Positions 38,656 through 59,449 of a stretch of 64,000 nucleotides of DNA are shown piece by piece. Origin of the DNA: Skermania sp. ID1734 (GTDB lineage: Bacteria; Actinomycetota; Actinomycetes; Mycobacteriales; Mycobacteriaceae); NCBI RefSeq assembly GCF_007489285.1, contig NZ_VLIY01000002.1, forward strand, positions 248,001 to 312,000. The letters are read 5' to 3'. A program made the translations under genes and the position numbers. Under the pieces are notes generated by a model that was given only the letters and a program-made list of their open reading frames with translations, had not been told where the DNA came from and ran no database searches. Numbering within the stretch: position 1 is the first letter of the stretch; the number at the start of each line of letters is the position of its first letter.

Positions 38656-38665
38656 CGCGAGCGCT

Positions 38666-38904: not shown

Positions 38905-38912
38905 AGGCAGCC

Positions 38913-39731: not shown

Positions 39732-39736
39732 GACCG

Positions 39737-41395: not shown

Positions 41396-41861
41396 CACAG
41401 TCGGAACGATCGACCGCGAGGCAGCGTTGGCCCTCGATTTCGCACCCGTGCGGACGATCGTCGAGCGCGGCCGCCTTACCTTCTTCGCCCGCGCGACCGG
41501 GCAGACCGACCCGATCTGGACCGACGTCGAGGCGGCACGCGCCGCGGGATATCGCGACCTCCCGGTCCCGCCCACGTTCTTCTTCAGCCTCGAGCTCGAG
41601 CGCCCGGCACCGTTCGGCTACCTCGACCAACTCGGCGTCGACATCGGCCGCATCCTGCATGGCGGCCAGAGGTTCCGGCACCACGCGACCGTGTACGCCG
41701 GCGACGAGCTCGTCCTGCAGACCAGGATCGTCGACGTGTCCGTCCGCAAGGGCGGGGCGCTCGAGATCCTGGTCAAGGGCACGGACGTGTTGCGCGGGGA
41801 CGAGCTGGTCGCGGAGGCGACCGCTACCATCGTCGTACGCAACCCGGGCGCCTCTTCATGA
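41388..41861 (+). CDS. MaoC-like N-terminal (FAS1-type) dehydratase domain protein
   Basis: This 157-residue hot-dog protein matches the MaoC_dehydrat_N/HadA group. It contains FFARATGQTDPIWTDVEAAR (about 32-51), PVPPTFFFSLELE (about 59-71) and ILHGGQRFRHHATVYAGDEL. It likely pairs with the protein encoded next to form a heterodimeric (R)-specific enoyl-CoA hydratase, as HadAB does. It overlaps phaC by 8 bp and the next gene by 4 bp. The product would supply (R)-3-hydroxyacyl-CoA for PhaC. Confidence 0.85.
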   Translation: MSDTVGTIDREAALALDFAPVRTIVERGRLTFFARATGQTDPIWTDVEAARAAGYRDLPVPPTFFFSLELERPAPFGYLDQLGVDIGRILHGGQRFRHHATVYAGDELVLQTRIVDVSVRKGGALEILVKGTDVLRGDELVAEATATIVVRNPGASS

Positions 41862-42253
41862 GCCGCGCGCTACAGGTCGGTCAGGAGCTCGAGGCGCTGA
41901 CGCCCGGCCCGGTCACTCGCACCCAGCTGGCTTTGTTCGCAGGCGCGTCCGGGGACCACAACCCGATCCACATCGACCTCGACTTCGCCCGCGCCGCCGG
42001 CATGGAGGATGTGATCGCACACGGCATGCTGTCGATGGCGTACGTGGGCCGGATGCTGACCGACGCGGTGCCGATCGGGAACCTCCTCGAGTGGGAGGTC
42101 CGCTTCGTGGCGATCACCCCCGTGCACGCCCGGCCCACCTGCCGCGGGACGGTCACCGCCATCGAGGACGACATCGCGACGATCGACGTCCGGGTCGTCC
42201 TCGAGGACGGGACCACGACTTTGACCGGCACCGCGAAGGTCCTGGTGGCCTGA
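41858..42253 (+). CDS. MaoC-like (R)-specific enoyl-CoA hydratase subunit
   Basis: This 131-residue MaoC domain has the hydratase-2 motif FAGASGDHNPIHIDLDFARA, with the catalytic Asp and His in GDHNPIH (about 30-36). IAHGMLSMAYVGRML (about 51-65) follows. It is the catalytic partner expected for the preceding non-catalytic MaoC-N protein. Translation is coupled by a 4-nt overlap. Together they convert trans-2-enoyl-CoA to (R)-3-hydroxyacyl-CoA for PhaC (PhaJ-like function, inferred from context). Confidence 0.87.
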   Translation: MSRALQVGQELEALTPGPVTRTQLALFAGASGDHNPIHIDLDFARAAGMEDVIAHGMLSMAYVGRMLTDAVPIGNLLEWEVRFVAITPVHARPTCRGTVTAIEDDIATIDVRVVLEDGTTTLTGTAKVLVA

Positions 42254-42267
42254 CCCAAGACCGAAGC

Positions 42268-42294
42268 GGGGCCCGACTCGTCGAATCGGGCCCC
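42268..42294. terminator. Bidirectional hairpin between convergent genes
   Basis: GGGGCCCGA and TCGGGCCCC form a perfect 9-bp stem with a 9-base loop, midway between the MaoC gene and the convergent acyl-CoA ligase gene. Confidence 0.75.
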
Positions 42295-42307
42295 GGTGAT
42301 TCACCGA

Positions 42308-43960
42308 TCAGTCCGCGTAGACGTCCTTGTAGCTCTCCCGCATCACCTTCTTGTCGAGCTTGCCCACGCTCGTGCGAGCTAGGCTGTCGACGAATAGGAC
42401 CTTGTCCGGCATCTGCCAGGTCGCGAACTGGGGCGCGAGAACGTCCTTGATCTCGCTCAGGGGCAGTTCGACTCCGCCGTCGGTCACGACTACCGCGATC
42501 GGACGCTCCTGCCACTTGGGATGGGGAACGCCGATGACGGCGGCCTCTCGCACCAACGGGTGCGAGGTCAGCGCGTTCTCCATGTCGATCGAGGAGATCC
42601 ATTCGCCTCCGGACTTGATCACGTCCTTGATCCGGTCGACGATCTTGAGGTACCCGAAGGTGTCGATCGTCGCCACGTCACCCGAGCGCCAGTACCCTTC
42701 GTGGAACCGTTCCGGCTCGTTGAGGTCGTGGTAGCTGGCGGTGATCCAGGGGCCGCGCATCAGCAGTTCCCCCTGGGCCTTGCCGTCGAAGGGGACGTCC
42801 CGGTCCTCGCCGTCGACAAGACGGAAGTCGACGCCGGTCAGCATGACCCCCTGAGACCGCTTGCGGTCCCACTTCTCCTCCTCGGGCAGCTGGGCCAGCG
42901 AGGGCTTGATGCCTCGGTTCACACTGACCAGCGGCGTGGTCTCGGTGGCCCCGTATGCGTGGATGATGTCGGCGCCGGTCAGCTCGGCGTATCCGCGCAT
43001 GAGGCTCAACGGCGGCTCGGATGCGCCGCTGAGGAACCGTGCGCGGCTCAGATCCGGCTTCGTCTCAAGCGTTTTGATGTAGTCCAGCATCGGGCCGAAG
43101 ATCGCGGGTGCGCCGTTGGCGACGGTCACGGTCTCCTCGATAATCGCGTCCACCAGGGGGGAGAGCTCGCCGGCGGCGTAGCGCCCGGGGAGCACGACCT
43201 TGGCCCGGGCCTGAACCGCTGCCTGGGGCAGTCCCCAGCAGTTCGCGTGGAACATCGGAGTGATGAGCATGACGGAGTCGTAGGCGCTTATGCCGAGCTC
43301 GGCCACCATCGTCATCGTGTGCAGGTAGATGCAGCGATGCGAGTAGTAGACACCCTTCGGGCGTCCGGTCGTACCGGTCGTGTAGCAGGCGCTGTAGGCG
43401 GACGTCTCGTCGATCATCGGCCAGTCCGCCTCGGTGCTCGCTGCGGCCAGGAGATCCTCGTAGTGCAGCGGGTCCGGCAGGCTGGTCTCCACCTGCTCCA
43501 GCGGCTTGTCGGTCATGATGACCCATCGCACGTCGGGCACGGTGGGTGCGATCTTCTCGGCCACCGCGAGCAGGGTTTCCTCGACGAGGATCCATGACGT
43601 GCCGCTGTGCCGGACCACGAAACCGAGATCCTCCTCGCCCAGGCGCAGGTTCATCTGGAGCATGGCCGCTGCCGTCCCCGGGATCGACCAGTACAGCTCG
43701 AAGTGGCGTCTGCTGTTCCAGTCCAGGACGCCGACGACGTCGCCGGGCTGGATGCCCAGGTCACGCAGTGCGTTCGCCGAGCGAACGATCCGGCTGTAGG
43801 CATCCGCGTAGGTATAGCGATCCCACCTGCCGTCCGAGGTTCGGAAGACGATCTCCTGCTCGGGTGACGTCCGCGCCGCGTGCCGGATGAGGGTCGTGGT
43901 GTTGAGCGGGTAGCCGTCGCCCGATGTAGACGGCCGGCCCTTGACGAGTTCTGGGTTCAC
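42308..43960 (-). CDS. Acyl-CoA ligase (AlkK-like medium-chain fatty acid CoA ligase)
   Basis: This 550-residue ANL enzyme has the AMP-binding P-loop YTTGTTGRPKGVYYSH (about 191-206), the GATETTP motif, WRSGDVATID, and a C-terminal lysine in TSVGKLDKK. The length and the stretch PMFHANCWGLPQAA match the AlkK/FadD-like group that activates medium-chain fatty acids. It would provide acyl-CoA for the acyl-CoA dehydrogenase and PHA genes encoded convergently. A TGTTC-N7-GAACA site lies 60 bp upstream of its start, as before the phaZ operon. Confidence 0.9.
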   Translation of the reverse strand: MNPELVKGRPSTSGDGYPLNTTTLIRHAARTSPEQEIVFRTSDGRWDRYTYADAYSRIVRSANALRDLGIQPGDVVGVLDWNSRRHFELYWSIPGTAAAMLQMNLRLGEEDLGFVVRHSGTSWILVEETLLAVAEKIAPTVPDVRWVIMTDKPLEQVETSLPDPLHYEDLLAAASTEADWPMIDETSAYSACYTTGTTGRPKGVYYSHRCIYLHTMTMVAELGISAYDSVMLITPMFHANCWGLPQAAVQARAKVVLPGRYAAGELSPLVDAIIEETVTVANGAPAIFGPMLDYIKTLETKPDLSRARFLSGASEPPLSLMRGYAELTGADIIHAYGATETTPLVSVNRGIKPSLAQLPEEEKWDRKRSQGVMLTGVDFRLVDGEDRDVPFDGKAQGELLMRGPWITASYHDLNEPERFHEGYWRSGDVATIDTFGYLKIVDRIKDVIKSGGEWISSIDMENALTSHPLVREAAVIGVPHPKWQERPIAVVVTDGGVELPLSEIKDVLAPQFATWQMPDKVLFVDSLARTSVGKLDKKVMRESYKDVYAD

Positions 43961-44289: not shown

Positions 44290-45801
44290 TCAGTATCGGT
44301 CGTATTCCCTGTTCAGAGGCCGTTGGGTCGGGCGGTTGATGGCGGGGTAGGTGGCCATTGCCACTGCGGCTCGGGCGGCGTGGATGTTCATGACCTTGGT
44401 TGAGTAGCCGAGCAGATCGGCGAGTGAGGCCGGGTCTATTTCTTTGGTGAGGTCGTGCAACGCCGCGTTTCGGGCGGCTTGGATGTCGATGCCGAGGCCG
44501 CGTAAACGGTTCATCAGTACTTGTTCGGAGATGTGTTGTCCTGCATTGGTTCCGGGGAAGAGCCAGGTGCTGCCGTGGTTCATGGTCTGGTGGTTTCCCC
44601 GGCGCCCGAGGTGCTGGTGGAAGAGGGGGAGCAGGGCTTCTGGGATGGGGGCAGGGAGATCGCCCAGTGCGATGGTGGTTCTTGCTGGTGTTGCGTCGAC
44701 ATCGTCGAGTGTCAGCTGACAGATCCGGCTCACTGGGGTTCCGTAGAGCAGCAGGATCAACGCGGCGATTCTGGTCGAGAGTGCGACCTGCTCGGCTGCC
44801 ACGACGTTCTTGATCAGGTCGAGGCGCTGTCGCGATGAGGCCAGTGGGGTAGTGCGTGCTGTGCGATACCGCGTTCTGAACGGTGGCGCGATGCCGGCAC
44901 GTGCGCGCCATTGGATGAAGTTGCGGATGAGGGTGCGGGTCGTCGTTCCCTCGCTGAGATAGGCGTCCAGTTGGGCCTGCCGAAGGTCGTTGATGGTGGT
45001 GCTGTGTTCGTCAAGTAGCCAGCGTAGGAACTTGCCGGCTTCGGTGATTTCTTGTTTGGCGCAGCGCGTGGCGTTGTCCATATTGCGTGTGGGGTCGGTG
45101 TTTTCGCGCAATCGACGTAGGTGATGCCATCGCGCGAACTGCTCCAGCGGTGTTGCGATGGCGGGCTCGTCGCGCAGAGTCTCGAGCCGGTGGTCGAGCC
45201 AGCTTTCGAAGCGGGCCAGGCGTCGGTCTCCGCGGTTGGGCATCATGTGGTGATGAACCAGCATCTCGCGCAAGTGTTCCAAGCTGCGTGATGGCGGCAG
45301 GGCGTCGAAGGCTTCGTGGTTGAGTTGCAACTCGCGCGTGCCGATCTTGGTGAGCAGATCAGCGGTGACGGGGTGGCGCATCCAGGTGATGATGCTTTCC
45401 GGGCGGGGAACAGCCGCCAGCTCAGTGACCAGCCGTTTGATGCGCATGTCGGGCGGCGTGTGCGGTCTGAGGATCTGTTCAAGGTCGCTGGTGACGACGC
45501 AGCGAGCGCAGTGGTCGCCGCGTAGGCGTTCAGCTTCGCGCCCACAGTTGTCACATTCAAGATTGGTGGTGATGCCGGCACATTCGCGGCAGATGGGTTG
45601 CCCAGTCGGTGAGACTCCGGGCAGGAGTCGATCGGTTCCGCAGAATGCGCACTGGCCGTAGGTGCGTGCCGCGGTGGTGAAACACGGACCGCAGACCGGG
45701 CCCTCCGGCCACCGCACTCGGATCCGGGAGGGCTCATGGCATCGGCTGCATTCGGTAGTGCCGGCAGTGCGGGGCCGGCCACGTCTGCGTGGTTCAGTCA
45801 T
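44290..45801 (-). CDS. Tyrosine recombinase-like protein with zinc ribbons, catalytically degenerate
   Basis: The 503-residue protein opens with an AT-hook-like RRRGRPRTAG (5-14), then six CxxC pairs (18/21, 37/40, 51/54, 71/74, 83/86, 98/101), enough for three zinc ribbons. The C-terminal third resembles a phage-integrase core: LYGTPVSRICQLTLDD supplies one Arg. The second Arg and the His boxes are replaced (LHDLTKEID, LLGYSTK), and no nucleophilic Tyr is in place. It is probably a non-catalytic recombination subunit or DNA-binding factor. It is last in a unit with an XRE gene and a frameshifted recombinase. Confidence 0.75.
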   Translation of the reverse strand: MTEPRRRGRPRTAGTTECSRCHEPSRIRVRWPEGPVCGPCFTTAARTYGQCAFCGTDRLLPGVSPTGQPICRECAGITTNLECDNCGREAERLRGDHCARCVVTSDLEQILRPHTPPDMRIKRLVTELAAVPRPESIITWMRHPVTADLLTKIGTRELQLNHEAFDALPPSRSLEHLREMLVHHHMMPNRGDRRLARFESWLDHRLETLRDEPAIATPLEQFARWHHLRRLRENTDPTRNMDNATRCAKQEITEAGKFLRWLLDEHSTTINDLRQAQLDAYLSEGTTTRTLIRNFIQWRARAGIAPPFRTRYRTARTTPLASSRQRLDLIKNVVAAEQVALSTRIAALILLLYGTPVSRICQLTLDDVDATPARTTIALGDLPAPIPEALLPLFHQHLGRRGNHQTMNHGSTWLFPGTNAGQHISEQVLMNRLRGLGIDIQAARNAALHDLTKEIDPASLADLLGYSTKVMNIHAARAAVAMATYPAINRPTQRPLNREYDRY

Positions 45802-46129
45802 CGGTGATGATTCGCGCCTTCACCGGCCGATACGCATTGAGCAGCGGCACGTCGCTGGGCGCGTTTACGGCTTTCGTGCGGGTGTGACGGGCATCGCTGG
45901 CTGTGTAGGTGATCAGGTCGCCGGCCTCGATGCCGAAGATGTCGCATAGCGCCACAAGAACTTGGAACGAGATCCGTTCGGGTTCTTGCCCGACGATGCG
46001 ATAGATTTGCGACTCGGAGAGCGTGATGCCCCGCTCGCGCAGGGGGCCGACCAGGTCACGGCTATTCTTCATGCCAGCTCGGGCCATGAATTCTCCTACC
46101 CGCCAGTGGTATTGAATCTCGCGCCTCAT
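45794..46129 (-). CDS. XRE-family helix-turn-helix protein
   Basis: The 111-residue protein has a Cro/C1-type helix-turn-helix: NSRDLVGPLRERGITLSESQ then IYRIVGQEPERISFQVLVAL (about 41-60) and CDIFGIEAGDLI. It lies between two recombinase genes with a 4-nt overlap upstream and 8 nt downstream. Its place in this module suggests control of excision/integration gene expression, perhaps through TGAATGCA palindromes at 47261-47281. Confidence 0.8.
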   Translation of the reverse strand: MRREIQYHWRVGEFMARAGMKNSRDLVGPLRERGITLSESQIYRIVGQEPERISFQVLVALCDIFGIEAGDLITYTASDARHTRTKAVNAPSDVPLLNAYRPVKARIITDD

Positions 46130-47246
46130 TGCGATTCCTTTCGGGTAGTCCCGGCCAGGTCGGCGTTACTGCGAGTCAGAGTCGTGCTGAGCACCCGCTC
46201 GAGCTCGCGTGCCCGATAGTCGGGGGCTGCCAACGTGTAGATCGAGGTGGTCGCGGCGTGCTCGTGTCCGAGCTGCAGCTGCACAAAACTGACGTCGTAG
46301 CCGTACTCGGTTTGCAGGTTGGTCGCATACGAGCGGCGAACGAGTGCAGATCGAGGCCGGGCGGAAAACCCAGTTCGTCGACGAAGTTGCGCATGCGCTG
46401 CCACAGGTTTCGTTCGGGCACTAGCCCACCCTTCTCGGTGGGAAACAGGTCATTGACTGGCTGGCCGTAGCGAGGCAGCCCGCGCTCGACCCAGTCGGCA
46501 ACCGCCTCGGCGGCCCAGTCGAATACGGTCAGCACCGTGCGCTGTTTGGGTGGGGAACCGCGCATCGCTTTGCCGTGCCGGATGCGCACCAGGCCCCATT
46601 CACCGAAGAACGGAGCACGGGCATTGCGGGAGAAGTCGACCAGTTGCAGGTGTCGAACTTCGTTGCGGCGCAACCCCCATCCGTACAGCGTCTTGAACGC
46701 AACCGCATCGCGCCATGCCGCCAGAGCACCTTTTCGCCCGGCGTTGAGTATCCGTTCGGGTTCCAGGTCGGCGAGATCGAAGAACTGCTGCAGCTCGGTA
46801 AGAGTGAAGGGCCGTTTCAGCGCCCGCGAGTCGTCGACCTGGACATGCTTGGCCTTGTTGAACTCGGTGACGATTTGACTGAACACGGTGCCAAACAGCC
46901 GACCGCAGTGCTCATTCCAGTCGTAGGCCGGGTTGGTGGCGTAGTCGAGAAACACCTTCACGTCGGTCTGGTAGGCCCGCACCGTACTGTGTGCTCGATT
47001 GCGAACGCCGCGCATATGGCCGAAATAGTCGTCGGCGTCTACCGGTGTCCATTGCCAGGGGAAGGTACCGACGAAGTCCATCATCCGCATCACCGATGCG
47101 CTGCGGCGGGCGACGGTACCGCTCGAATGCCCCTGCGCCAGCTGCGCATGGCGCCAGCCGGTCAACACGTCGTCGAGAAAGGCGTCCGGATCCGGGCCCG
47201 ATGTACCGGCCGGCAGGTACACCAGCCGACCCATCGATTCGTCCAT
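46126..47246 (-). pseudogene. Tyrosine recombinase with one frameshift
   Basis: The gene begins at ATG 47246, directly after a strong GAGGAGG site, and reads as an integrase (N-terminal SAM-like domain, then TLYGWGLRRNEVRHLQLVDF with the first catalytic Arg). After LDLHS near 46341 the frame shifts. The second half continues in another frame to 46126 with RRSYATNLQTEYGYDV, LQLGHEHAATTSIYT (His and Tyr) and a terminal KESQ. Adding one C after 46341 would restore HSLRRSYAT, the usual H-x-L-R-R box. Either a true pseudogene, a programmed shift or a sequence error. The downstream XRE start overlaps its end by 4 nt. Confidence 0.8.
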
Positions 47247-47260
47247 CCGAGCCTCCTCGT

Positions 47261-47281
47261 TGAATGCATATTCTGCATTCA
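47261..47281. promoter_or_regulatory. Palindrome upstream of the recombinase
   Basis: TGAATGCA-TATTC-TGCATTCA has perfect 8-bp arms and lies 14 bp before the recombinase ATG. Further arms CGAATC/GATTCG and TGCAGG/CCTGCA follow within 50 bp. Likely operator for the XRE protein. Confidence 0.55.
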
Positions 47282-47460
47282 GACTGCGAATCTTGCAGGA
47301 GATTCGGGTAAACCTGCACGTCAGGCCGGTGTCGACGCCCCAGCGAGACACCCAAATCCAGCCCCAGCCGGCCCGTCGACGCACCAACACCATCGAGGCC
47401 AAATACGCTTTACGCCAACGCAACTCGCGCCTTGGTGGGGTGGTATCAGAAGTGGACCTA

Positions 47461-47881: not shown

Positions 47882-48515
47882 TCAGTTGAGTACTGCTCCC
47901 ATCAGCATGGCCGCTGTACCGATATCCATGACAACGTGCGGGACGACGCTGGCCCGGACTGGGAGGGTTGATCCTGGTGTCGACGCTCGACGATTGTCGG
48001 CGGGAAAATCCACGGTGGAGACGATCACAACTGTTGCCACCGCATCGATCGCAAAGAGGACAGCGCAGACGATTCCCAGCACCGGGAGGGGTAATTCCTG
48101 CGACTGGACAGATCCCATGTGACTCATGTTGTGTCCCGAGTGGCTATGTTGTGTAAACCATCGCCGCCGCGGCAAGTGGATGGTAGGTCGCAGCTGCCGT
48201 GCGTTCGGCTGAGAACCGGGCTGTCCGGCACTGGCGGAGCCTCACGACGAGAATGCACCCGTACAGGGCGGTAAGGATTGCGAAAACGGTGAACCAGAGC
48301 CGATGTGAAGCGCTCACCACGAGCATGAGCAGCATCGCGCCGGACATCGCTATGTGTGCAACCTCAGACTCTCGGTCAGCCACGTAGGACACGGCCGTAC
48401 CCGTGGGCAGCCGATGCCCTGATACGAGCAGCACGACCCCGAAACACAGGCCGAATGCCAGCAGGACCGCGAGCCCAACCCGCAGTGCGTCGTGGTGTTC
48501 GAAGAACTCCTGCAA
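47882..48515 (-). pseudogene. DUF5134-like membrane protein, frameshifted
   Basis: The 5' frame (ATG at 48515) encodes several hydrophobic helices with HIAMSGAMLLMLVVSASHR and ends TYHPLAAAAMVYTT at a TAG. The coding potential continues in a second frame to 47882 with HSHSGHNMSHMGS, then PLPVLGIVCAVLFAIDAVAT and a last hydrophobic stretch with VVPHVVMDIGTAAML. His/Met-rich helices of this kind are typical of DUF5134 proteins. A frameshift near 48150 probably split one gene. Two overlapping short genes are less likely. Confidence 0.55.
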
Positions 48516-48551: not shown

Positions 48552-49979
48552 TCATGCCGCCGGCCAGACGCGAACCTCGCATCTGCCTGCAAGATCAACC
48601 TCAGCCAACGCGGTGCCGTCGGTTGCCGCAATGAGTTGATCCACCGTTGCCCCAGACACGTGGTAGGTCCGTCCCGGGGACAAGCGCGCAAACTTCAGCG
48701 TCGCGCGGGTTGGGCCGTTGCCTGGACGCAGAACCAGTTCCAGCGCGGCCCCATCGGTCACTGCCTTGGCGACGAGCACGTCTGGATAGGCGACTTGGGC
48801 AAGCAGTGGCCCGGTCCGCCATTCCAACGGGACGACGCCATTGACCAGATCACGCATACTGTTCCGTCTCCCCCACCGGCCGAGGGCATAGCTGCCGTAG
48901 CTCCACGGCGACAGACCCTTGAACTGCCGGGCCCCGTGTGACCAGATGACGTCATGGCGAGCTGCAATCGAACGGTCGAGTGCGTTCAGGGCTTCGTCAT
49001 CGCCGTGTTCGCAGGCGCCCATCATCAGGCAAGATCGCGCCTGGGCATCGCCACGGTTGACGTTGTAGTTGCCGGCGTCAATTCTGTCGAGCACACTGCG
49101 TTCGAGTTCGACGTCCTCCCCCGTTATCGTGATGCACTTATTTCGTAGGACGCGCCAAGTGTTTTCGGCGACATCCGGCATGGTTGGGTTCAACAGCGAC
49201 GCGATGGAGCCGTCGTTAAACAAACTGGGTGGCACGAGCGGGCGACCGCTGCGCGTGCCGCAGCTCAGGAAGCGCCCGTTCTTTCGGCGCCATCCGTCCT
49301 TGTCGTAGCTAAGACGGACCCGCTCGATCAGATCGCCCGTCAAGTTGGTTCCGTGCAGACGGTCGTGCAATCGCAAGGTGTTCAAGGCAAAGGTATTGCA
49401 CACGGGGTAGACCAGGCGCGGCTCGCACGGGTATTGCGGATGGTCCGGTTCCTGAAGCATGTTCACGCGGATCGCATTGGCGATGCCAGCAAACTCGTAT
49501 CGATAGCTCTTTCGCTCGTTCCAGCGAAGTGTCAGCGACCCGGGCGCGCTGAAGCGACGATCGTCGTTCAGCGTTTCGTATAGCCCGATCATCATTCCGA
49601 AGTAGGCGGTGTACATGATGTTGTGGAAGACGATGGGGTCGGGATTCCACCGACCGTAGCCGACCAGGCGTTCGATCGCCCAGTAGCTCCAGACTCGGCG
49701 GTTGGTCATCTTGAGAATGGCGTTCCGTTGAGCCTCGGCGAGATAGCCGGTGAAAGCCGGCGTGCGGGTGTACTGCGCCATAGCCAGCGCGTACTGGCTG
49801 AAGTTGAGCTCGTACCGTATCCCTGAGAGGCCGAACTGCTCGATTACCTGGAACCCCCGCCACTCATCCAGTGGTTGCAGGAGAAGGTCGAGAAAGTAGC
49901 ACTGAGTGGCCAGGTCGTCGGCGTTGGACTCCGCGACTGGAAGGTTTGCGGGTACCGGAGAAGTGTTGGCGGAGTCCAT
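48552..49979 (-). CDS. Linalool dehydratase/isomerase-like protein
   Basis: From the ATG at 49979 (AGAAAGG site upstream) the protein is 475 residues. RYELNFSQYALAMAQYTRTP and the following Trp/Tyr-rich VWSYWAIERLVGYGRWNPDP resemble the (alpha/alpha)6-barrel linalool dehydratase/isomerase family. NIMYTAYFGMMIGLYETL and MMGACEHGDDEAL are further family-like stretches. Such enzymes hydrate or dehydrate tertiary or allylic terpene alcohols. No signal peptide is evident from this start. It ends an operon whose first gene is split by a 10.7-kb insertion. Family assignment is from memory of motifs, so substrate remains open. Confidence 0.7.
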   Translation of the reverse strand: MDSANTSPVPANLPVAESNADDLATQCYFLDLLLQPLDEWRGFQVIEQFGLSGIRYELNFSQYALAMAQYTRTPAFTGYLAEAQRNAILKMTNRRVWSYWAIERLVGYGRWNPDPIVFHNIMYTAYFGMMIGLYETLNDDRRFSAPGSLTLRWNERKSYRYEFAGIANAIRVNMLQEPDHPQYPCEPRLVYPVCNTFALNTLRLHDRLHGTNLTGDLIERVRLSYDKDGWRRKNGRFLSCGTRSGRPLVPPSLFNDGSIASLLNPTMPDVAENTWRVLRNKCITITGEDVELERSVLDRIDAGNYNVNRGDAQARSCLMMGACEHGDDEALNALDRSIAARHDVIWSHGARQFKGLSPWSYGSYALGRWGRRNSMRDLVNGVVPLEWRTGPLLAQVAYPDVLVAKAVTDGAALELVLRPGNGPTRATLKFARLSPGRTYHVSGATVDQLIAATDGTALAEVDLAGRCEVRVWPAA

Positions 49980-50013
49980 TTTTGCCTTTCTGCGTGTGAA
50001 CCGTATGCCGGTG

Positions 50014-50568
50014 TCAGACTCGGTCGTCCATTCGGTAGCGCGGTTGCGCGTCCTCGACAATGACGCCGGGCGGTGCGCTCGAGATGGCGGCAGCGGCGTC
50101 GACGACAGCGCAAACCGTCGCTGCCTGCGTGTCCGCGCCTCGGTCGAACCCGATTTGTGCACGCCACGCGGCTGGTGCGCCGGTCACCTTCAGTTCGAAT
50201 GCGGTGCCCCGCTCGATGAATTCGATGCCGATCACGCGATCAACCATCTGTGAAATGGTGGCACCGATACGGTCGATGAGCACGGTCGAATGGTCGGTGG
50301 CATGGAACGACACGCCATTTCGGCGGCAGGCCGAATCGATCTGTTCAATAGTGTCGTCAGCGAATTGACTTAACGGACCAACAAGAACGACATTCTTTTG
50401 GGCCTCGATCAGGGCAATGGCGTGGTCCAATCCGCCCTCGCCCGGGATGACGATCACGCTCGTCCCGTTTGCGATCGCTTCGTCCGTGGTGGCAACAGGT
50501 GAACATCCAAGCGCTGACGCGATCGCCTCCGCGAGTTGGCCTTCGCCCAGGACAACAGTTTTCGTCAT
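50014..50568 (-). CDS. Short dihydrodipicolinate reductase-like protein (184 aa)
   Basis: The N-terminus TKTVVLGEGQLAEAIASALG looks like a Rossmann nucleotide-binding start. The C-terminal 40 residues (ATVCAVVDAAAAISSAPPGV and following EDAQPRYR) closely parallel the end of the upstream neighbour (ASVHALVDSVASVCAAEPGV, then DDAAPYYR). It therefore looks like a shortened paralogue of the split reductase, with the middle region missing. It overlaps that neighbour by 4 nt and lies 34 bp before the linalool dehydratase-like gene. It may be a second, possibly non-catalytic, subunit. Confidence 0.65.
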   Translation of the reverse strand: MTKTVVLGEGQLAEAIASALGCSPVATTDEAIANGTSVIVIPGEGGLDHAIALIEAQKNVVLVGPLSQFADDTIEQIDSACRRNGVSFHATDHSTVLIDRIGATISQMVDRVIGIEFIERGTAFELKVTGAPAAWRAQIGFDRGADTQAATVCAVVDAAAAISSAPPGVIVEDAQPRYRMDDRV

Positions 50569-50891
50569 TTGGTGCTCTCCAGGAGATTCCGGTAGTAAGG
50601 CGCGGCATCGTCGATCAATACCCCTGGTTCGGCCGCGCAGACTGACGCGACAGAGTCGACGAGGGCATGCACCGAAGCAGTGGTGATCGGATTGCCGGTG
50701 GATTCGGTCAGCTCAGTGGTTAACTGCATCGACAGCCGTCCCGGGTCTCCCTCGATTTCCAGGGTGTAGGTGGCTTCTTTGTCGCCCGGGTCGAAGGGCA
50801 GGGCATCGCCGCGGTAAGCGTGTTTTGCGCCGAGGTACCAGCACTCTTCGTTGGTGAAGAAACAGTGTTCACCGAGGTAACCACGATGCAT
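50565..50891 (-). pseudogene. 3' fragment of a dihydrodipicolinate reductase-like gene
   Basis: The 108-codon frame from ATG 50891 encodes HRGYLGEHCFFTNEECWYLG and continues to a DPGRLSMQL stretch and the PGVLIDD tail. It matches only the C-terminal domain of diaminopentanoate dehydrogenase/dihydrodipicolinate reductase-like proteins. The matching 5' part is at 61605-62546 on the same strand. A TGCA at 50887-50890 marks the junction with the inserted element; joining it to the TGCA at 61606-61609 gives one in-frame 420-codon gene. The ATG may still allow the fragment to be translated from the element side. Confidence 0.8.
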
Positions 50892-50957
50892 GGCTTTCCC
50901 TATTGAATGATACGTGTTGGGGTCGGTTGTGTTGCGTCGGAAGGATGAGGTGGGCGA

Positions 50958-52457
50958 TTGTTGGGGTCCTGGTCGGTGCACTGGGTGACAGGTTCGGTAC
51001 CGGCGATGGATGGGAATCCGATTCTTGCCGCGTGGACCGATCTTGCCGATCGTGAGGTGGCGGTGGGGATCGGTCGTGGGGATCCGTTCATGGTGGGTCC
51101 GGATGGGCGGGTGGATCCGCGGCTGACCAGGTTCTTCAGCAGATCGTCGTTCGCGCGCCTTGCGCCGGCGACGAAGGTTTCCTACACCAACGACTATCGG
51201 GTGTTTTTCAACTTTTTGTGGATGCGCGGAAAAGTTTGGGATGCAACCGATTACGATGACCTGTTCGATTTCGAGGACTGGCGACGACGAGCACCGCACA
51301 ATCCGGCACGGATCAGCGGAGCGAAGTGGAACCGCGAACTGGCCGCCCTGCAACGACTGTTCGGCTGGGCGGTATCGCAGCGGTTGCTCGACGCTAATCC
51401 GGTGCAGGTGAAGACGGTTCGCAACCGCTACGGTGATCCGATCGAAGTTGCCCAGGCGCGAGCCAAGGATGTGCGCTCGAGCAATGTGCGCTGGTTGACA
51501 CCGCGGGCCTACCGGTTGTGGCGTGACGTCGGTCTGCGGGGTTACACGGGCGAGGATCGACGCGATCCGTCCTGGCGCGGACGTCACGACGACCGCAATG
51601 CGGCGTTCGCCGATGTGCTGTTCTGCAGCGGTCTGCGGCGCACCGAGGCGGCCTCGCTGCTGGTCACCGAGCTACCGCAGGCCACCACGATGGATCGGCG
51701 CTATGTCGATGCGCGCCTGGCGTCGGCGGTCGCCAAGAACGGGCGGGCGCGGACGTTCTACCTGTCGGCGCAGGTGGTGGCCGATGTTCAGACCTATGTC
51801 GCGACGAGTCGCCGTGCGGTGGTCAGGCTTGCTCAACAGACCGGCCGCTACGAGGACCTGCCCGAGATCCGGGTGCTCACCCATCAGTCTGGGCGGATGG
51901 GGCGGGTTTTGCACTGGAAGGACCGTCGTGGCCAGCTCGGGCAGGCTGGTCTGGACAACCTCGACCCCGACGAACGCCGTCTGCTGTTCGTCACCGGACC
52001 CGACGGGATCGAACCGCTGTGGTTGTGGCTGGCCCAGGACGGTAGCCCGTCCCGGCCGCACTCGTGGGAGGCGGTGTTCCGTGCCGGATCACAGCGTTGC
52101 GCAACGATGTTGGCGGGAAAGGTGACTGATCCACCGTTTTGCACTCCGCACATGTGCCGGCATTCCTTCGCGTTGCACATGCTCGTTGCGTTACACCACG
52201 CGATGGATCGCAAATTCGGCCTCACCGCCGAGGAACGCCGTGACTACCGGCTGCTCTACGGCGACCCGTGGCGAATGGTCAAAGACCTCCTCGGCCACGC
52301 CAGCGAGCAGACAACCCGAGACATCTATCTCGCGCCGGTCGCTGATCTGCAGATTCGCTCACTGCTCACCGGTGACGACGATCCAGATGTTGCCGAGTTG
52401 TTGACGCGGATCGCGGCGGCCTCCGAGCGCATCATCGACCGCGAGGACATCGCGTGA
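50958..52457 (+). CDS. Tyrosine recombinase 1 (catalytically complete)
   Basis: This protein of about 480-499 residues has the full integrase set: Arg in FCSGLRRTEAASL, the H-x-x-R box PHMCRHSFALHML, and LLGHASEQTTRDIYLAP with the second His and the nucleophilic Tyr. The N-terminal part contains a SAM-like core-binding domain (SYTNDYRVFFNFLWMRG). The start is uncertain: TTG 50958, GTG 50976 or ATG 51006 are in frame. It opens a four-gene operon with 4-nt overlaps and lies 67 bp inside the left end of the element. Equivalent to TnpA of Tn554-type systems (inference). Confidence 0.85.
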   Translation: MLGSWSVHWVTGSVPAMDGNPILAAWTDLADREVAVGIGRGDPFMVGPDGRVDPRLTRFFSRSSFARLAPATKVSYTNDYRVFFNFLWMRGKVWDATDYDDLFDFEDWRRRAPHNPARISGAKWNRELAALQRLFGWAVSQRLLDANPVQVKTVRNRYGDPIEVAQARAKDVRSSNVRWLTPRAYRLWRDVGLRGYTGEDRRDPSWRGRHDDRNAAFADVLFCSGLRRTEAASLLVTELPQATTMDRRYVDARLASAVAKNGRARTFYLSAQVVADVQTYVATSRRAVVRLAQQTGRYEDLPEIRVLTHQSGRMGRVLHWKDRRGQLGQAGLDNLDPDERRLLFVTGPDGIEPLWLWLAQDGSPSRPHSWEAVFRAGSQRCATMLAGKVTDPPFCTPHMCRHSFALHMLVALHHAMDRKFGLTAEERRDYRLLYGDPWRMVKDLLGHASEQTTRDIYLAPVADLQIRSLLTGDDDPDVAELLTRIAAASERIIDREDIA

Positions 52458-54190
52458 CCCCGCCACCAGGTTCGCCGGCCGCCTTGCCCAGCGACGGTCA
52501 CCGACGTCCATCGACGCTGGACCATACCGGACTGGTGGTGACCCACATCTGCGAAAAGGGTGACACCAGCATGGTTTACGACTTCGCCACGCTGCCCGTC
52601 CCGACCGCGCTGCAACGATCGTTGGCAACGGCGTTCGCCACCCAGGCAGCGGCGGGCGGACCGTGGCGCTCGGTGGTGACCAGCCAGGAGGTCTGGAGGC
52701 TTTTGAAGATATTCACCAAATTCCTTGCCGCCCAGCCGCATCCGACCGGCGATATCACAGACCTCTCGGTTGCCACGTGGAACACCTGGCGGATCAGTCG
52801 TCCCGACACCGCATCGGGACGGCGGCAGATCACGAAAATCGGGGCACTGCTGAGGACGCATCCAGACCTGCCGCAGCAGACGCACACCGCAACCCTGAAA
52901 CGCATCAGATCCGTCGACAGCACTCAAGCCCCGTATTCGGGCCGAGAGCTGGAAGCGATCAGGTCGGCCGCGGCGGAAATGTTCGAGCAAGCCTGGTGGC
53001 GGGTCGTCGACAACAACAGACACCTTCGAGACTGGCAAGCCGGCCGATTCTCCCCTGACAGCACCAACGCACGGCTCGGGGAGGCATTGGAACACCTCGC
53101 CCGCACCGGTGATGTTCCACTCCACCCGACATTCCGGCGCTACGGAAGCCGGGTGCTACCAGACCGATACAACCGCGCCGTAGGAGGAACCGATCCTGAA
53201 TCAAGCTGGCAGAGACTGTTTCTCACTCATGTCGAGATCGTCTCACTGGCTGCGTTGATGGTGATCTCCTACGGGTGGAACTCCACCGCCATTGCCGAAC
53301 TCAACGTTCCCGACACCACGAGCGACCCCGGTGCCGATGGCGCCACGATCTACCGCGTCGAGCTCGAAAAACGCCGGCGCCGGCAGCCGCTGCGCTACGA
53401 AACACGCAACCTGACCGATTGGGGAACGAACTCGCCGGGCCACCTCATCGGCAAAGCGGTCCAAGCGACCGCTCCGGCACGAAACCTGCTCGCTGTGCAT
53501 GGCACGGTGTCAACGCGATTGATGCTGTGGCACGTGCACTCGCCGCTGCTCGTGGACGACCCTACGACGATGATCCGCAGCGGATTCGACTCCGAGTCCC
53601 TCAGGAGGTGGCGCATTGTTACCGGCTTGGAGCTCAACTTGCGCCGGCTGCGCCGAACAGTGGTCGTGCAGCACCGCCGCACCCCCACCCAACACAGTCA
53701 GGATGTGCACGACAGCCTCTACGTGCTGCCGGACCCGGCCACACACGACAACGCGGCCCCGATCATCACCGCCGGAATCGACGCCGCCATCGAACAGGCC
53801 CGCGCGAGTGTGAAAGCCACGGTAACCCGTGAGGAAGGCGACGACGGACACGACACTGCCACCGCCACCTGCAGCGACTATCACCACAGTCCGTTCGGCG
53901 CGCACGGCTCGCCGTGCCGTGCCTCGTTTCTGTTGTGCCTGGCTTGTCCGAACGCCGTGGTGACACCGCGGCACCTGCCGCGGCTGGCCTACTTGCACCG
54001 TGCAATCGACAGCCTGCAAGACGTGCTGCCCGCCGCGGTATGGGATCACGACTGGCGCGAGCACCACGCCAGACTGTCGGCGCTGCAAGAATTCTCGTTC
54101 ACACCCACCGAGTGGTCCGACGCTCTCGGTGAGCTGGACGCCACCGACCGAACCGTCATCGACGCACTATTACGCAGGGAGTTGGAGTGA
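52454..54190 (+). CDS. Recombinase-associated protein 2 (degenerate tyrosine recombinase-like)
   Basis: The 578-residue protein lacks a clear set of integrase catalytic residues. LNLRRLRRTVVVQHRRTP near 395-412 could be a worn R-box. The C-terminal part has CSDYHHSPFGAHGSPC followed by SFLLCLACPNAVV, a Cys/His cluster able to bind zinc. The position between two recombinase genes, with 4-nt overlaps on both sides, suggests an obligatory partner in strand exchange or end recognition. No function can be proven from sequence. Confidence 0.72.
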   Translation: MTPPPGSPAALPSDGHRRPSTLDHTGLVVTHICEKGDTSMVYDFATLPVPTALQRSLATAFATQAAAGGPWRSVVTSQEVWRLLKIFTKFLAAQPHPTGDITDLSVATWNTWRISRPDTASGRRQITKIGALLRTHPDLPQQTHTATLKRIRSVDSTQAPYSGRELEAIRSAAAEMFEQAWWRVVDNNRHLRDWQAGRFSPDSTNARLGEALEHLARTGDVPLHPTFRRYGSRVLPDRYNRAVGGTDPESSWQRLFLTHVEIVSLAALMVISYGWNSTAIAELNVPDTTSDPGADGATIYRVELEKRRRRQPLRYETRNLTDWGTNSPGHLIGKAVQATAPARNLLAVHGTVSTRLMLWHVHSPLLVDDPTTMIRSGFDSESLRRWRIVTGLELNLRRLRRTVVVQHRRTPTQHSQDVHDSLYVLPDPATHDNAAPIITAGIDAAIEQARASVKATVTREEGDDGHDTATATCSDYHHSPFGAHGSPCRASFLLCLACPNAVVTPRHLPRLAYLHRAIDSLQDVLPAAVWDHDWREHHARLSALQEFSFTPTEWSDALGELDATDRTVIDALLRRELE

Positions 54191-56295
54191 CCGCGCCATT
54201 GTCTGCTGGGCCGGCGCCGGGACCGGGACCCGACGATCTCCTCGTCGATCCGTCGACCGTCGAGGAAGCTCGCCGTGAACTGATTCCGCGCTACGGCGCG
54301 GCGAGCTGGCGGATCACCTTCGCCAGCGCGAACCCGTCGGTGGGTACTGCCGACCTGCATTGGGATACTTTTCCCGATGCACTGCGCGAGCAACTCCGTC
54401 ATGCAGGCTGGGTGCTGCTGAAGTTTCCCGTTCCCGATCACCTTCTGAACGGCAGCACGCGCATGCGTGGGCACCTCAGTGCCTTGCGCAATCACCACAC
54501 CCTGATTCATTGGCGGTGCTTCGCGCATTGGTTGGATCGTCGGGGAATCACCGAGCTGGCCCAGGTGTCCGAAAGCGTCCTGGGCGACTACAGCATCCAC
54601 CTCGTCAAAGAACGTCGACTGCACCGCAACACCGTCGCGAGCATCCTCGGTGGGCTGACACGCCTGCACGCACATGCACCGTTGCTGCCTGAATCGGCCC
54701 GCATCCGACAACCACCGTGGGAGACAGAAGGCGTCGATGACTACCTGCCCGCAGCGACCCCGACCGGTGAGAACGCCTCGGAGGCCATCAATCCGGCAAC
54801 GATGGGTCCGTTGCTGGTATGGGCGCTGCGGTTCGTGGAGATGTTCGCCACCGACATCCTCGCCGCCGATGCACAAGCCGCCCGTCTACGCGCCGCCACC
54901 GCCGCGGCAGCATCCGATCAGCGTTCCCGCGCCGCGGTCGCGGCCTATCTCGCCGATCTCGAAGCACGCGGCTTGCCGCTGCCCGCGCACAACCGTACCG
55001 GCACGGTATGGGCGGCCAAAACCTACATCGCCGCAATCACGGGCGCGCCGCTCGGAGTGGTCAGCTACGCGCTTCGCGCGCCCCGGTGGCGGCAATATCT
55101 GGCCGAGAACCCGGGACCGTGTCCCCTCGACGTCCCGATCACCGCGACCGTCGACGGACAGAAATGGATCGACGGGATCGACTTCCATGACGTGGCGGGG
55201 CTTGTGCAGCATCTCGACACCGCCGCGTTCATCGTCATCGCCTATCTCACCGGCATGCGGCCCAGTGAAGTCCTCGGACTACAGGCCGGGTGCTGTCCAG
55301 ACCCGCCGGCACGCCAGGGCGGGACCCGCCGGCACCTCATCCGCGCCCGAGTGTTCAAAACCGCCTATGACGAGGACGGAAATCACCTCTCGGCGGGAGA
55401 GATCCGCTGCGCGCCGTGGGTGGCTGTCCCGCAGGTGGTCACGGCCATACGGCTGCGTGAGGCGCGGGTGGACGCCACCGGACTCTTGTTCGCCGGAGAC
55501 CCAACCAATCAGCGTCCCGGTGGCCGCGCAGCGTCGTACGCCACACTGTCCAGACGCATCGAACAGTTCGTGGCCTGGGTCAACACCCATCACGGCGAGG
55601 ACGCCATTCCCGCCGATCCGCACGGCAACATCGGCACCCGCCGATTCCGGCGCACACTGGCCTGGCACATCGCCCGGCGACCGGGCGGGCTGGTCGCCCT
55701 CGCAGTTCAATACGGACACCTGCGGACCATCATCAGCGAGGGCTACGCCGGGCGGCAGCGTGAGGGTATTCACGACATCCTCGACCTGGAAACCGCTCGC
55801 GCGGTCGCCGAACATCTCAGCGATGTCGAAGAATCCCTGGCCGACGGCGGCAAGGTGTCCGGCCCCGCAGCGCGTCGTCTCATCCTCGCCGCACACGAGC
55901 AACACCGCAGATTCGGTGGCATGGTCCTCAACCAGCGCCAGGCCAAGGCGCTGTTGTCCGACCCCGCGCTCACGGTGTTCCACAATCCCGAGGCCTACCT
56001 CAGCTGCAACTATGACCCGGCGCAGGCGCAATGCAATCCCGAAAATCTTGCATCGCAACGAAAGCGACCGACCACGCCGAGTCTTGACCGGTGCCGACCC
56101 AGCTGCGCCAATATCGCCCGCACCGACAGTGATGCAAGTCAGCTACGCGAGCGAGCTCAACACATCCGCTACCAGGCAGATACTGCCCTGACACCCGAGC
56201 CGATAGCCGAACGGCTGCGCCATCACGCGCGAGAACTCATCGAAATCGCCGACCGGCACGAACGCACTCGACTGGGCGACAAGGAGCCATCGTGA
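54187..56295 (+). CDS. Tyrosine recombinase 3 (TnpB-like)
   Basis: The 702-residue protein is a large integrase-type recombinase. YLTGMRPSEVLGLQ holds the first catalytic Arg. IGTRRFRRTLAWHIARRPGG replaces the usual H-x-L-R-H box, with Phe for the His. QYGHLRTIISEGYAG supplies the second His and the likely nucleophilic Tyr. A Cys cluster (SCNYDPAQAQC, then CRPSC) follows near the C-terminus. The size and order match the longer TnpB protein of Tn554-like trios. It overlaps both neighbours by 4 nt. Confidence 0.8.
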   Translation: MTAPLSAGPAPGPGPDDLLVDPSTVEEARRELIPRYGAASWRITFASANPSVGTADLHWDTFPDALREQLRHAGWVLLKFPVPDHLLNGSTRMRGHLSALRNHHTLIHWRCFAHWLDRRGITELAQVSESVLGDYSIHLVKERRLHRNTVASILGGLTRLHAHAPLLPESARIRQPPWETEGVDDYLPAATPTGENASEAINPATMGPLLVWALRFVEMFATDILAADAQAARLRAATAAAASDQRSRAAVAAYLADLEARGLPLPAHNRTGTVWAAKTYIAAITGAPLGVVSYALRAPRWRQYLAENPGPCPLDVPITATVDGQKWIDGIDFHDVAGLVQHLDTAAFIVIAYLTGMRPSEVLGLQAGCCPDPPARQGGTRRHLIRARVFKTAYDEDGNHLSAGEIRCAPWVAVPQVVTAIRLREARVDATGLLFAGDPTNQRPGGRAASYATLSRRIEQFVAWVNTHHGEDAIPADPHGNIGTRRFRRTLAWHIARRPGGLVALAVQYGHLRTIISEGYAGRQREGIHDILDLETARAVAEHLSDVEESLADGGKVSGPAARRLILAAHEQHRRFGGMVLNQRQAKALLSDPALTVFHNPEAYLSCNYDPAQAQCNPENLASQRKRPTTPSLDRCRPSCANIARTDSDASQLRERAQHIRYQADTALTPEPIAERLRHHARELIEIADRHERTRLGDKEPS

Positions 56296-56702
56296 CGCCA
56301 AACCACCGCGCCGAGATCCGCGCCGCCATGGACCGGTTACTGGCCGGCACCCCGCTGCGATCCGACGGTGCCCTCACCATCGTCTCGCTCGCTGCCGAAG
56401 CCGACATCAAAAGACACCTACTGACCCACCGGCACACCGACCTCAAAGACGAGTTCTACGCCCGCGTCCGAGCGCAGCATCACATCCCGGCCAGCGAACA
56501 GCAGCTCCGCACGGAACTGCAGGCGCTGAAAACCAAACTCGCCCGGGTCAATCGGAGCAACGCCGAGCTACGCGAAACCATCGAAGCTTTCGCGCGAATC
56601 ATCAACGTCCTGACCACCGAGAACACGCAACTGACCCACCGACTCCACCAGGACACCCACAGCGTCACACCGCTGCGTCGAGGCGACGCGTCCCGGGTGT
56701 GA
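56292..56702 (+). CDS. TnpC-like small coiled-coil protein (DUF6262-like)
   Basis: The 136-residue protein has an N-terminal helix-turn-helix-like segment (VSLAAEADIKRHLLTHRHTD, about 31-50) and a long coiled coil (about 70-118) with EQQLRTELQALKTKLARVNR. It begins with GTG in a 4-nt overlap with the large recombinase gene. Its size and position at the end of a recombinase trio match TnpC of Tn554-like elements, an accessory factor for orientation or efficiency of transposition. Confidence 0.75.
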   Translation: MTPNHRAEIRAAMDRLLAGTPLRSDGALTIVSLAAEADIKRHLLTHRHTDLKDEFYARVRAQHHIPASEQQLRTELQALKTKLARVNRSNAELRETIEAFARIINVLTTENTQLTHRLHQDTHSVTPLRRGDASRV

Positions 56703-56805
56703 TGGGTACCGACCAAACGAAGCGAGGGTGCCCAGAACGTTGGCACCCAGGAAACGATGCGGGATAGCGGTGCCGGGACTCATGTTCCACGCTACGGTCG
56801 AGGCC

Positions 56806-57036
56806 ATGTGGATGCGCTTGACCGAGCAGCCGTGGTTCGGGCCTCAACCCGACTCGGGCTTCGGTTGGGCCCCTCGGTCATGGCAAGGCTGGCTCGTCGC
56901 CGTGGGATTTCTGGCGCTGATGGTCGCCAGTTGCTTCGCCTTCTCTGGTACAGCCACGACCGTGGCAATCATTGTCCTGGCGGTGACACTCTGTGGTGTC
57001 TGTGCCGTGACCGGTGATCCGCCCGGGATTACTTGA
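56806..57036 (+). CDS. Small membrane protein (76 aa)
   Basis: From the ATG at 56806, preceded by GAGG, the protein starts MWMRLTEQPWFGPQPDSGFG and continues WAPRSWQGW. Two hydrophobic segments follow (LVAVGFLALMVASCFAFSG and TTVAIIVLAVTLCGVCAV). A W-P-x-S/T-W-Q-G-W pattern before two helices is common in small actinobacterial membrane proteins of unknown role. An in-frame ATG at 56728 is less likely. It could be an accessory or immunity-type protein of the element, but this is speculation. Confidence 0.6.
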   Translation: MWMRLTEQPWFGPQPDSGFGWAPRSWQGWLVAVGFLALMVASCFAFSGTATTVAIIVLAVTLCGVCAVTGDPPGIT

Positions 57037-57126
57037 GTCACCACCCGCCCGCAAAGGCGCAATGCCGAACCATCACACCCCGTATCACGGTAGGAAGCCT
57101 GCCGATTTTCCCAAAAAATGCGCTAT

Positions 57127-58419
57127 TCACGAATTTCCCTGCGTTGTCAGCCATGTAGCGATGTCGTCGACCACGACCGGGTCCATGTGCTGGTCGGGTT
57201 GTCGGTATTCGGCGGGCGAGGATGGCCCAGCGCCTGGAACGAACAGGTGATTGTGCTGTGGATATACCCGGATTGTGACGTTCGGGCGATCAGCCAGTGC
57301 CGCCTGCCAGCCCGCTAGATCCTCGGCCACGGTGGCCTGATAGTCGCGACCCCCTTGGAGCACCAGGATGGGTTTATTCAGATCTGCCGCTACCGCCGGC
57401 GAGTCGTAGTGGCGCAGGTCGAGCCAGTAATGGGCGGGCACGCCGAACGGCAACTCGTTGTCGGGTGTCTGCGGCGACAGTTCAAGACTGTCAACCAAGG
57501 CGGCCTGATTCGACATCGACTCGATGCTCGCCTGCGCAGCCGCACTAGTTTCCGGGTTGAGCGAGGATAGATAACGAGCCTGCCGTAGTGCAGCCCGGTG
57601 CAGTGGGTAGGTCCCCCCCGCCATGATCACCAGGCCTGCGATCGATGGCTCGGTCGCCCCGACGCGCGGAGCGGCGGTGCCTCCCAGGCTGTGGCCCAGC
57701 ACGAAGACCCGCGCTGGATCCACATGTTCGGATAGCGATTGGAGCAGGCGGACAGCGGCCACGGCGTGATCGACGTATTCGTTCGTCAACGAGAACTTTT
57801 TGATCTCGGCGATCTCGCGCGGGTGGGCATAGGTCACTTTGTCGAAACGCAGCACGACAATGCCCCGCGTGGCCAATCCCCACGCCAGGTCTTTGAACGG
57901 CTTGTTGGGGCCGATTGTCTCGTCGCGATCCTGCGGTCCGGATCCGGCGAGCAGAACCACAGCCGGACATCGATGCGGCAGTCGAGGCATGGTCAACGTG
58001 CCGGCGACCGCGAGCTGGCCGGAACCGACGGTCACCTCGCGCTCATCGAGCATGTCCGGGTCCGCGTACTCCGGTACGTGCCAATCCGGTTGCGGCCCGT
58101 CCTCAGCGATCAGCGCCAGAGCGACCAGTTGTCCGGAGTCGTCGACCGATACGGCGACGTTCGTTGCGCCCTTTTCACCGGCGACGGGAAGCACGACCGT
58201 CGATGCTCCCGGCGGGCCTGCTGGTTGGCGCAGTGGATCCCCGACGCCGCGGATACGGCCGATTCGTTCGATCTCCGTGATCCATCCTGCTCGCAGGGCA
58301 TCGACAGACAACAAGCCTCTGAGATTCGGCGCGAGCATGTCATAGACGTCCGAAAACTGTTCCCCCGCCAGTTTTTCGAGCACGAGCACCGCGGTTGCCG
58401 TCGGTTCAACCTCTGACAT
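57127..58419 (-). CDS. Alpha/beta hydrolase with N-terminal NTF2-like (DUF3887-type) domain
   Basis: The 430-residue protein starts with a domain of about 110 residues typical of DUF3887 (EQFSDVYDMLAPNLRGLLSV). A serine hydrolase domain follows: LLAGSGPQDRDETIGPNKPF, nucleophile box VLGHSLGGTAAP, acidic residue in LQGGRDYQ and His in YPQHNHLF. It belongs to the S9/S33 peptidase-esterase group that includes putative acetyl-xylan/dienelactone-type hydrolases. It lies on the element, opposite in strand to the recombinase genes. Substrate unknown. Confidence 0.82.
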   Translation of the reverse strand: MSEVEPTATAVLVLEKLAGEQFSDVYDMLAPNLRGLLSVDALRAGWITEIERIGRIRGVGDPLRQPAGPPGASTVVLPVAGEKGATNVAVSVDDSGQLVALALIAEDGPQPDWHVPEYADPDMLDEREVTVGSGQLAVAGTLTMPRLPHRCPAVVLLAGSGPQDRDETIGPNKPFKDLAWGLATRGIVVLRFDKVTYAHPREIAEIKKFSLTNEYVDHAVAAVRLLQSLSEHVDPARVFVLGHSLGGTAAPRVGATEPSIAGLVIMAGGTYPLHRAALRQARYLSSLNPETSAAAQASIESMSNQAALVDSLELSPQTPDNELPFGVPAHYWLDLRHYDSPAVAADLNKPILVLQGGRDYQATVAEDLAGWQAALADRPNVTIRVYPQHNHLFVPGAGPSSPAEYRQPDQHMDPVVVDDIATWLTTQGNS

Positions 58420-59418: not shown

Positions 59419-59449
59419 AAGTTTATCCAGGCGTCATTTGATCTTTCAG

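Follow-up and report, generated by a model that had tools for sequence, protein, structure and literature searches.

The locus considered here raises the question of whether a gene encoding a relative of linalool dehydratase/isomerase, located in a 64,000-nucleotide stretch of DNA from Skermania sp. ID1734 (the window in what follows), works in concert with the two reductase-like genes that precede it or belongs with some other partner. A preliminary description of the DNA had read the region as an operon in which a TetR gene with a clear operator stands before a reductase split by an insertion, a shortened paralogue of that reductase and an (alpha/alpha)6-barrel protein of the linalool dehydratase/isomerase kind, and had taken the pairing of reductases with Ldi as the possible mark of a pathway for terpenoids or amino-substituted alkenols. 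The layout itself was sound, each of these elements being recovered at or near where it had been placed, and the region is organized as follows.

47901 to 48515, minus strand: DUF5134 gene, frameshifted, downstream of ldi (PF17197, 32.3 bits)
48552 to 49979, minus strand: ldi, encoding a 475-residue Ldi-family protein with an ATG start (PF18566)
50014 to 50568, minus strand: shortened reductase paralogue, 184 residues (matches the second gene in L104 and L105 by tblastn)
about 50565 to 50888, minus strand: split DapB-type reductase, C-terminal piece (52-53% identical to the equivalent C-terminal stretches in the intact L104 and L105 orthologues)
50889 to 61598, no strand assigned: GInt-like mobile island of about 10.7 kb, its ends certain to within a few bases
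about 61599 to 62546, minus strand: split DapB-type reductase, N-terminal piece (PF01113 DapB_N, 36.7 bits)
62562 to 62605, no strand assigned: probable TetR operator (11/11-bp inverted repeat with a 22-bp spacer)
62614 to 63180, plus strand: divergent TetR-family regulator (PF00440, 40.6 bits)

The 475-residue protein belongs to the linalool dehydratase/isomerase family. The Pfam profile Ldi (PF18566) matches it with 268.6 bits against a cut-off of 26.1, covering profile positions 1-315 of 318, and a whole-genome search returned this match as the single one in its own genome. Its best sequence relative of solved structure is LinD of Castellaniella defragrans (phmmer E 2.4e-9; profile E 1.9e-30), and LinD is also the top structural match (5i3t_B, Z 38.0, rmsd 2.2, 328 residues aligned) of the predicted model, which has a mean pLDDT of 93.2; the next different entry in the list is at Z 22.6. 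The proposed (alpha/alpha)6-type barrel is borne out by the model, where it occupies residues ∼13-383, and the comparison points to LinD and not to an unrelated family. A C-terminal beta domain (∼392-475) falls outside the LinD match.

In the profile alignment C185 and C194 correspond to C170 and C179 of LinD, key active-site residues of that enzyme (PMC12455561), and the pair is Cys in 102/102 Ldi homologues. The position of the LinD active-site His128 is filled here by Tyr126, and by W, F or Y in 101 of the 102 homologues, so that the mechanism may differ in detail from that of LinD; LinD Cys101 aligns with a non-cysteine, and the active-site residues D38 and Y44 lie outside the alignment, which begins at LinD residue 63. 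Identities to characterised enzymes are low, 26% over 283 columns to LinD and 34% to L192, a sequence of Thauera sp. Sel9 that we read as the Thauera Lis type from 18 bases of a published primer at its start, two further primer-derived patterns sought in L192 not having been found. No membrane segment, and hence no Lis-type N-terminal anchor, is predicted in the 71 residues of open frame before the Ldi domain, and no signal sequence is seen by eye.

Enzymes of this kind had been called rare outside terpene degraders, a statement that does not fit their distribution: of 401 genomes from the family Mycobacteriaceae, 34 contain PF18566, at 40 places altogether, and relatives among the best 80 of 120 loci come from Nocardia, Gordonia, Williamsia, Mycobacterium, Nocardioides, Aeromicrobium, Pseudonocardia and some proteobacteria. 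The tree set began with 122 Ldi matches scoring 150 bits or more, taken from the window, from 38 stretches of the family and, out of the 120 loci of a named-genome scan, from the best 80. Removal of 3 short sequences and 17 near-duplicates left 102 rows, a set biased by the two peptide patterns used in that scan; alignment A1 excludes L050 and L045. In a tree of the 102 rows, computed by a quick method with SH-aLRT support alone, the window Ldi groups with L123 (an Acidimicrobiia MAG) and L124 (an Actinomycetes MAG) with support 100, at identities of 72% and 69% that make these the closest relatives among those compared. The three nest in a 28-member actinobacterial clade, again with support 100, and by a simple hydropathy rule none of the 28 is predicted to carry a membrane segment ahead of the domain; the same rule scores 57/102 of all rows as anchored. 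LinD sits on a long branch, loosely with L046-L048 (4 rows, support 97), and its placement is unsure. A literature search of partial coverage for actinobacterial Ldi returned nothing on the unanchored subgroup.

What does accompany Ldi in this clade is a gene for a small membrane protein, either DUF5134 or a second type, which adjoins the Ldi gene in 27 of the 28 members (43/102 over all rows, with adjacency scored at no less than 60 bits using profiles built in this analysis). Gene calls for the neighborhoods were mechanical, with starts that are often wrong, and some contigs are short, so that a missing neighbor there is weak evidence. The window Ldi is an ordinary family member in kind, but one from an unstudied, unanchored subgroup with a conserved and equally unstudied partner. 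PF17197 lies within 1.2 kb of an Ldi match in 7 of the 34 Ldi-bearing genomes (G000, G015, G030, G214, G271, G289 and G300), two of the seven belonging to a divergent LDI-like group, and by our own arithmetic (∼215 Mb, ∼35 matches) far fewer than one such case would be expected by chance. Both L123 and L124 carry DUF5134 near Ldi, with no reductase on the available stretch.

The DUF5134 gene beside ldi, absent from the preliminary description, is broken in the window. Its N-terminal part is at 48144-48515 and its C-terminal part, in another frame, at ∼47882-48175; a whole-genome PF17197 search likewise gives DUF5134 in two pieces, one with an internal stop. A near-tandem 20-bp repeat (48113-48154) is located at the break.

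Among 16 aligned DUF5134 proteins Met124 and Asp162 are invariant and H56, M59, M66, H117, H194, M197 and M204 nearly so. We have counted DUF5134 and the second small protein as two separate types; hhalign finds no homology between them, and the 36-50 bits that an iterated second-type profile gives on DUF5134 genes may reflect shared membrane composition. As for the idea that the Ldi membrane anchor and the small membrane protein are parts of one split protein, profile comparison of the two yields no homology, the alignments spanning few columns, and the upstream small gene occurs with some anchored Ldi genes as well. The DUF5134 model (pLDDT 84.4) has no match in the PDB at E ≤0.001, and its best structural Z of 7.5, at an rmsd of 6.3, is uninformative; a likeness to copper storage proteins at Z 6-7 was rejected as lying within the background of the tool. 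No mention of DUF5134 was found in a literature search of partial coverage.

LDI uses no cofactor, is sensitive to oxygen and requires a mild reductant (PMC6013536), and a need for reductant has been reported for Lis too (PMC4791888). Taken together with the 27/28 adjacency and the conserved His, Met and Asp residues, these requirements suggest a proposal that we put forward as speculation and consider quite improbable as it stands, namely that the Ldi of aerobic actinobacteria and the His/Met-rich small membrane protein form a two-part system in which the partner docks the enzyme and keeps its oxygen-sensitive cysteines reduced. Were this so, a function could be assigned to DUF5134 for the first time, and it would become understandable how an enzyme that depends on reductant operates in aerobes.

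The reductase genes present a different picture. That they are reductase-like, and that the first was split by the insertion, agrees with the DapB_N match of the N-terminal piece and with the way in which the two pieces match, consecutively, uninterrupted orthologues of 422 residues (L104) and 423 residues (L105); the open frame of the N-terminal piece runs on to 61509, inside the insert. The start of the paralogue overlaps the C-terminal piece by 4 bp and its end lies 34 bp before the Ldi start. At 184 residues it is to be compared with 262 in L105 and 232 in L081, and it has no match in Pfam or NCBIfam at 0.001. The clear operator claimed for the TetR gene is supported by the statistics, its inverted repeat being equalled in 0/200 mononucleotide shuffles, and related palindromes are found in the same TetR-reductase gap of L104 and L105 (0/200 and 3/200 shuffles), where the adjacent TetR proteins are 54% and 46% identical to that of the window.

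Intact counterparts of the operon were found in relatives in a form that lacks Ldi: in L104 and L105 the orthologous reductase is flanked by TetR on one side and by a second reductase on the other, with no Ldi gene. The L104 contig ends after the second reductase, and the third gene of the module varies elsewhere, L081 having a member of the FAD amine-oxidase family and L105 an unrelated frame. Genomes outside the 34 with Ldi supply the nearest orthologues of the split reductase, G245 at 63% and G161 at 61%. Elsewhere, in L114-L119, homologues of the split reductase are seen beside DUF1214 and sulfotransferase genes and the dnaK operon (by Pfam for L114, with the same clusters in its neighbors).

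Seen from the Ldi side, a DapB-type reductase is within 1.5 kb of 2 of the 102 non-redundant Ldi genes. In all six other genomes of the family that have both an Ldi gene and a close reductase homologue, defined for this comparison at E 1e-40, the two are on separate contigs or at least 32 kb apart (G015, G030, G156, G236, G288 and G351). The 34 Ldi-bearing genomes hold 130 DapB_N genes by our own sum, and near the 40 Ldi places there is one at 1.9 kb (G300) in addition to the window's own, 12.4 kb off across the island. In Nocardia jejuensis (L163) a divergent DapB-type reductase lies 780 bp from the Ldi match, and in M. gordonae (L177) a reductase of the window's type is ∼5 kb from Ldi, an arrangement that leaves room for a functional link between the two. 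A conserved reductase-Ldi operon was a candidate that we rejected on the 2/102 count, the Ldi-free orthologous modules and the lack of a reductase in L123 and L124.

The suggestion of amino-substituted alkenols as substrates fares no better. Glutamate is the catalytic residue of native amine dehydrogenases (PMC11164908), and at that position (P3; E102 of AmDH4) the L105 reductase has Ala and that of the window, aligned by eye, has Ser, so that amine chemistry is not indicated; according to a review, moreover, LDI shows no activity towards linalyl amine (PMC6013536).

The limits of the island that now separates the reductase pieces were obtained from the alignment of these pieces to intact orthologues together with the junction sequence. 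Its genes are listed below.

50958 to 56702, plus strand: recombination operon, made up of 50958-52457 (PF00589), 52454-54190, 54187-56295 and a small gene at 56292-56702
57127 to 58419, minus strand: esterase-like hydrolase, cargo
58747 to 59418, no strand assigned: SdpC-like cargo (model below cut-off)
59438 to 60127, no strand assigned: SdpA, cargo (model above cut-off)
60046 to 61155, no strand assigned: SdpB/HTTM, cargo (model above cut-off)

Each of the four recombination genes overlaps the next by 4 bp. PF00589 is above its cut-off in the first recombinase-type gene and absent from the second and third, the last of these being present once at full length in the genome, with weak relatives located on a different contig. 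A+T content reaches 58% over 61480-61560, at the far end of the island, a value equalled by 3 of 799 80-bp windows. The gene order matches the published GInt layout (PMC5385486) and the island is probably of the GInt class by that layout, an assignment that goes no further than probable because flanking repeats were not found, the best direct repeat at its ends being a 7-bp match with nothing longer. The genes at 58747-61155 make up an SdpC/SdpA/SdpB-like antimicrobial-peptide operon carried as cargo.

The island has cut the reductase in two and put ldi at a distance from the operator, but the ldi frame stays open. The view that the insertion likely makes the operon non-functional in this strain is correct for the first reductase and need not extend to Ldi, whose frame is intact. 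It is reported that GInts drive the transcription of genes located 5' to them (PMC5385486), and since ldi is on the 5' side the insertion need not silence it. A scan of 50400-51400 with the sigma-70 consensus found no promoter where 0.4 were expected, a result of little weight in an actinobacterium. Across ldi from the island, at 44290-47423, there is a second group of recombinase-like genes with an HTH gene, which places ldi between two mobile-element remnants.

The wider neighborhood is more varied. Within 7 kb of the 28 clade Ldi genes we find, with labels assigned by eye, an acyl-CoA-ligase-like gene in 7/28, an acyl-CoA-dehydrogenase-like gene in 3/28 and an aldehyde-dehydrogenase-like gene in 3/28, and this recurrence makes a catabolic setting possible for some clade members. 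The window's own acyl-CoA ligase is AMP-binding by Pfam. It is part of a region (34563-43960) with an acyl-CoA-dehydrogenase-like gene, a MaoC-type hydratase (41388-41861) and hydrolase/synthase-like frames that looks, mostly by eye, like a polyhydroxyalkanoate or fatty-acid cluster. Outside the window's clade an mpaB/rubber-oxygenase-type gene adjoins Ldi in 19 of the 102 rows, among them L038 (7899-10195), in which PF09995 was found; in the window's clade there is none. The Ldi genes of these 19 rows are anchored and their ends are often overlapped by a few bases (Williamsia, Rhodococcus, Nocardia), and the two proteins are possibly an isoprenoid-chain-processing pair.

The reading that we favor, at a probability of roughly 60%, is that the window encodes a cytosolic Ldi of the unanchored subgroup, an allylic-alcohol isomerase/dehydratase with a membrane partner, that the reductases are a separate module, and that the island later broke the first of them. 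Most likely, by analogy with LinD, the C185/C194 pair would shift or remove the hydroxyl of an acyclic isoprenoid allylic alcohol of the linalool or geraniol type without a cofactor; the two cysteines would protonate and activate the allylic hydroxyl, allowing its departure or its return at the opposite end of the allyl system. The small polytopic membrane protein, DUF5134 in this case, may place or service Ldi at the membrane, where hydrophobic substrates are found. As to the order of events, we infer that the conserved TetR-operator-reductase-reductase module came to lie before ldi in this lineage and that the first reductase was afterwards hit by a GInt-like island, which broke the gene and cut ldi off from the operator.

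A single TetR-controlled pathway of two reductases and Ldi for a terpenoid or amino-substituted alkenol, as put forward at the outset, would account for the spacing at the locus, where the paralogue lies so close to ldi on the same strand, and is itself overlapped by the C-terminal reductase piece, that co-transcription is likely; the conservation of operator and TetR together with the reductases and the cases of N. jejuensis and M. gordonae can be added in its favor. We nevertheless hold it to be unlikely in view of the scarcity of reductases close to Ldi genes, including those of the closest relatives over the available stretch, the separation of the two in six of six other genomes, the changing third gene of the reductase module and the missing catalytic glutamate. 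Somewhat less unlikely is that the whole locus is decaying, with the island and the DUF5134 frameshift the signs of a dead operon in which ldi has yet to be struck. The split reductase, the DUF5134 gene in two frames, a paralogue shorter than its orthologues and the second recombinase cluster at 44.3-47.4 kb all fit such a course, to be set against an Ldi frame that is open across 475 codons with its conserved residues retained and against the chance that the DUF5134 frameshift is a sequencing error. It is highly improbable, finally, that Ldi shares the barrel fold alone and acts on a carbohydrate or other substrate, as glycosidases and sugar epimerases of that fold do: GH105, GH76 and cellobiose 2-epimerase structures do come next in the fold list (Z 20-22.6), but LinD scores far higher, the match to Pfam Ldi is a specific one and every one of the 102 homologues keeps the LinD cysteine pair.

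With the reductases probably no part of the system, the starting pair for experiments becomes ldi and DUF5134 rather than ldi and a reductase. Ldi-type enzymes are of interest for the production of dienes and terpene alcohols, and a 2018 review (PMC6013536) lists two that were characterised, both from betaproteobacteria. The present locus indicates a distinct unanchored actinobacterial group in which one active-site position is altered, a C-terminal domain is added and an unstudied membrane partner is conserved.

Several known systems can be compared with those of the window. The island resembles GInts in its three consecutive recombinase-type genes with a small fourth gene, its cargo and its A+T-rich far end, and may differ from them in its ends, where no flanking direct repeats >7 bp were found. 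The reductase shares DapB_N with native amine dehydrogenases, 2,4-diaminopentanoate dehydrogenase and DapB (NF040740, 53.6 bits against a cut-off of 400), and is unlike these in lacking the catalytic glutamate at the aligned position, in its longer C-terminal part and in being paired with a shortened paralogue. With LinD the window Ldi has in common the Pfam family, the barrel fold and the cysteine pair, and is set apart from it by an identity of ∼26%, Tyr in place of His128, the lack of a Cys101 equivalent and the extra C-terminal beta domain; LDI is, in addition, described as exported (PMC6013536), whereas the window protein has no visible signal sequence by eye. Lis of Thauera linaloolentis, compared by way of L192, is similar at ∼34% identity over nearly the full length, C-terminal part included, and in having the cysteine pair and an aromatic residue where LinD has His128 (by eye for L192), and the gene of the characterised linalool isomerase is likewise set apart from its neighbors (PMC4791888). 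Lis carries four N-terminal membrane helices in one chain with the enzyme (PMC4791888), in contrast to the window Ldi, which has none and is instead adjoined by a separate membrane-protein gene.
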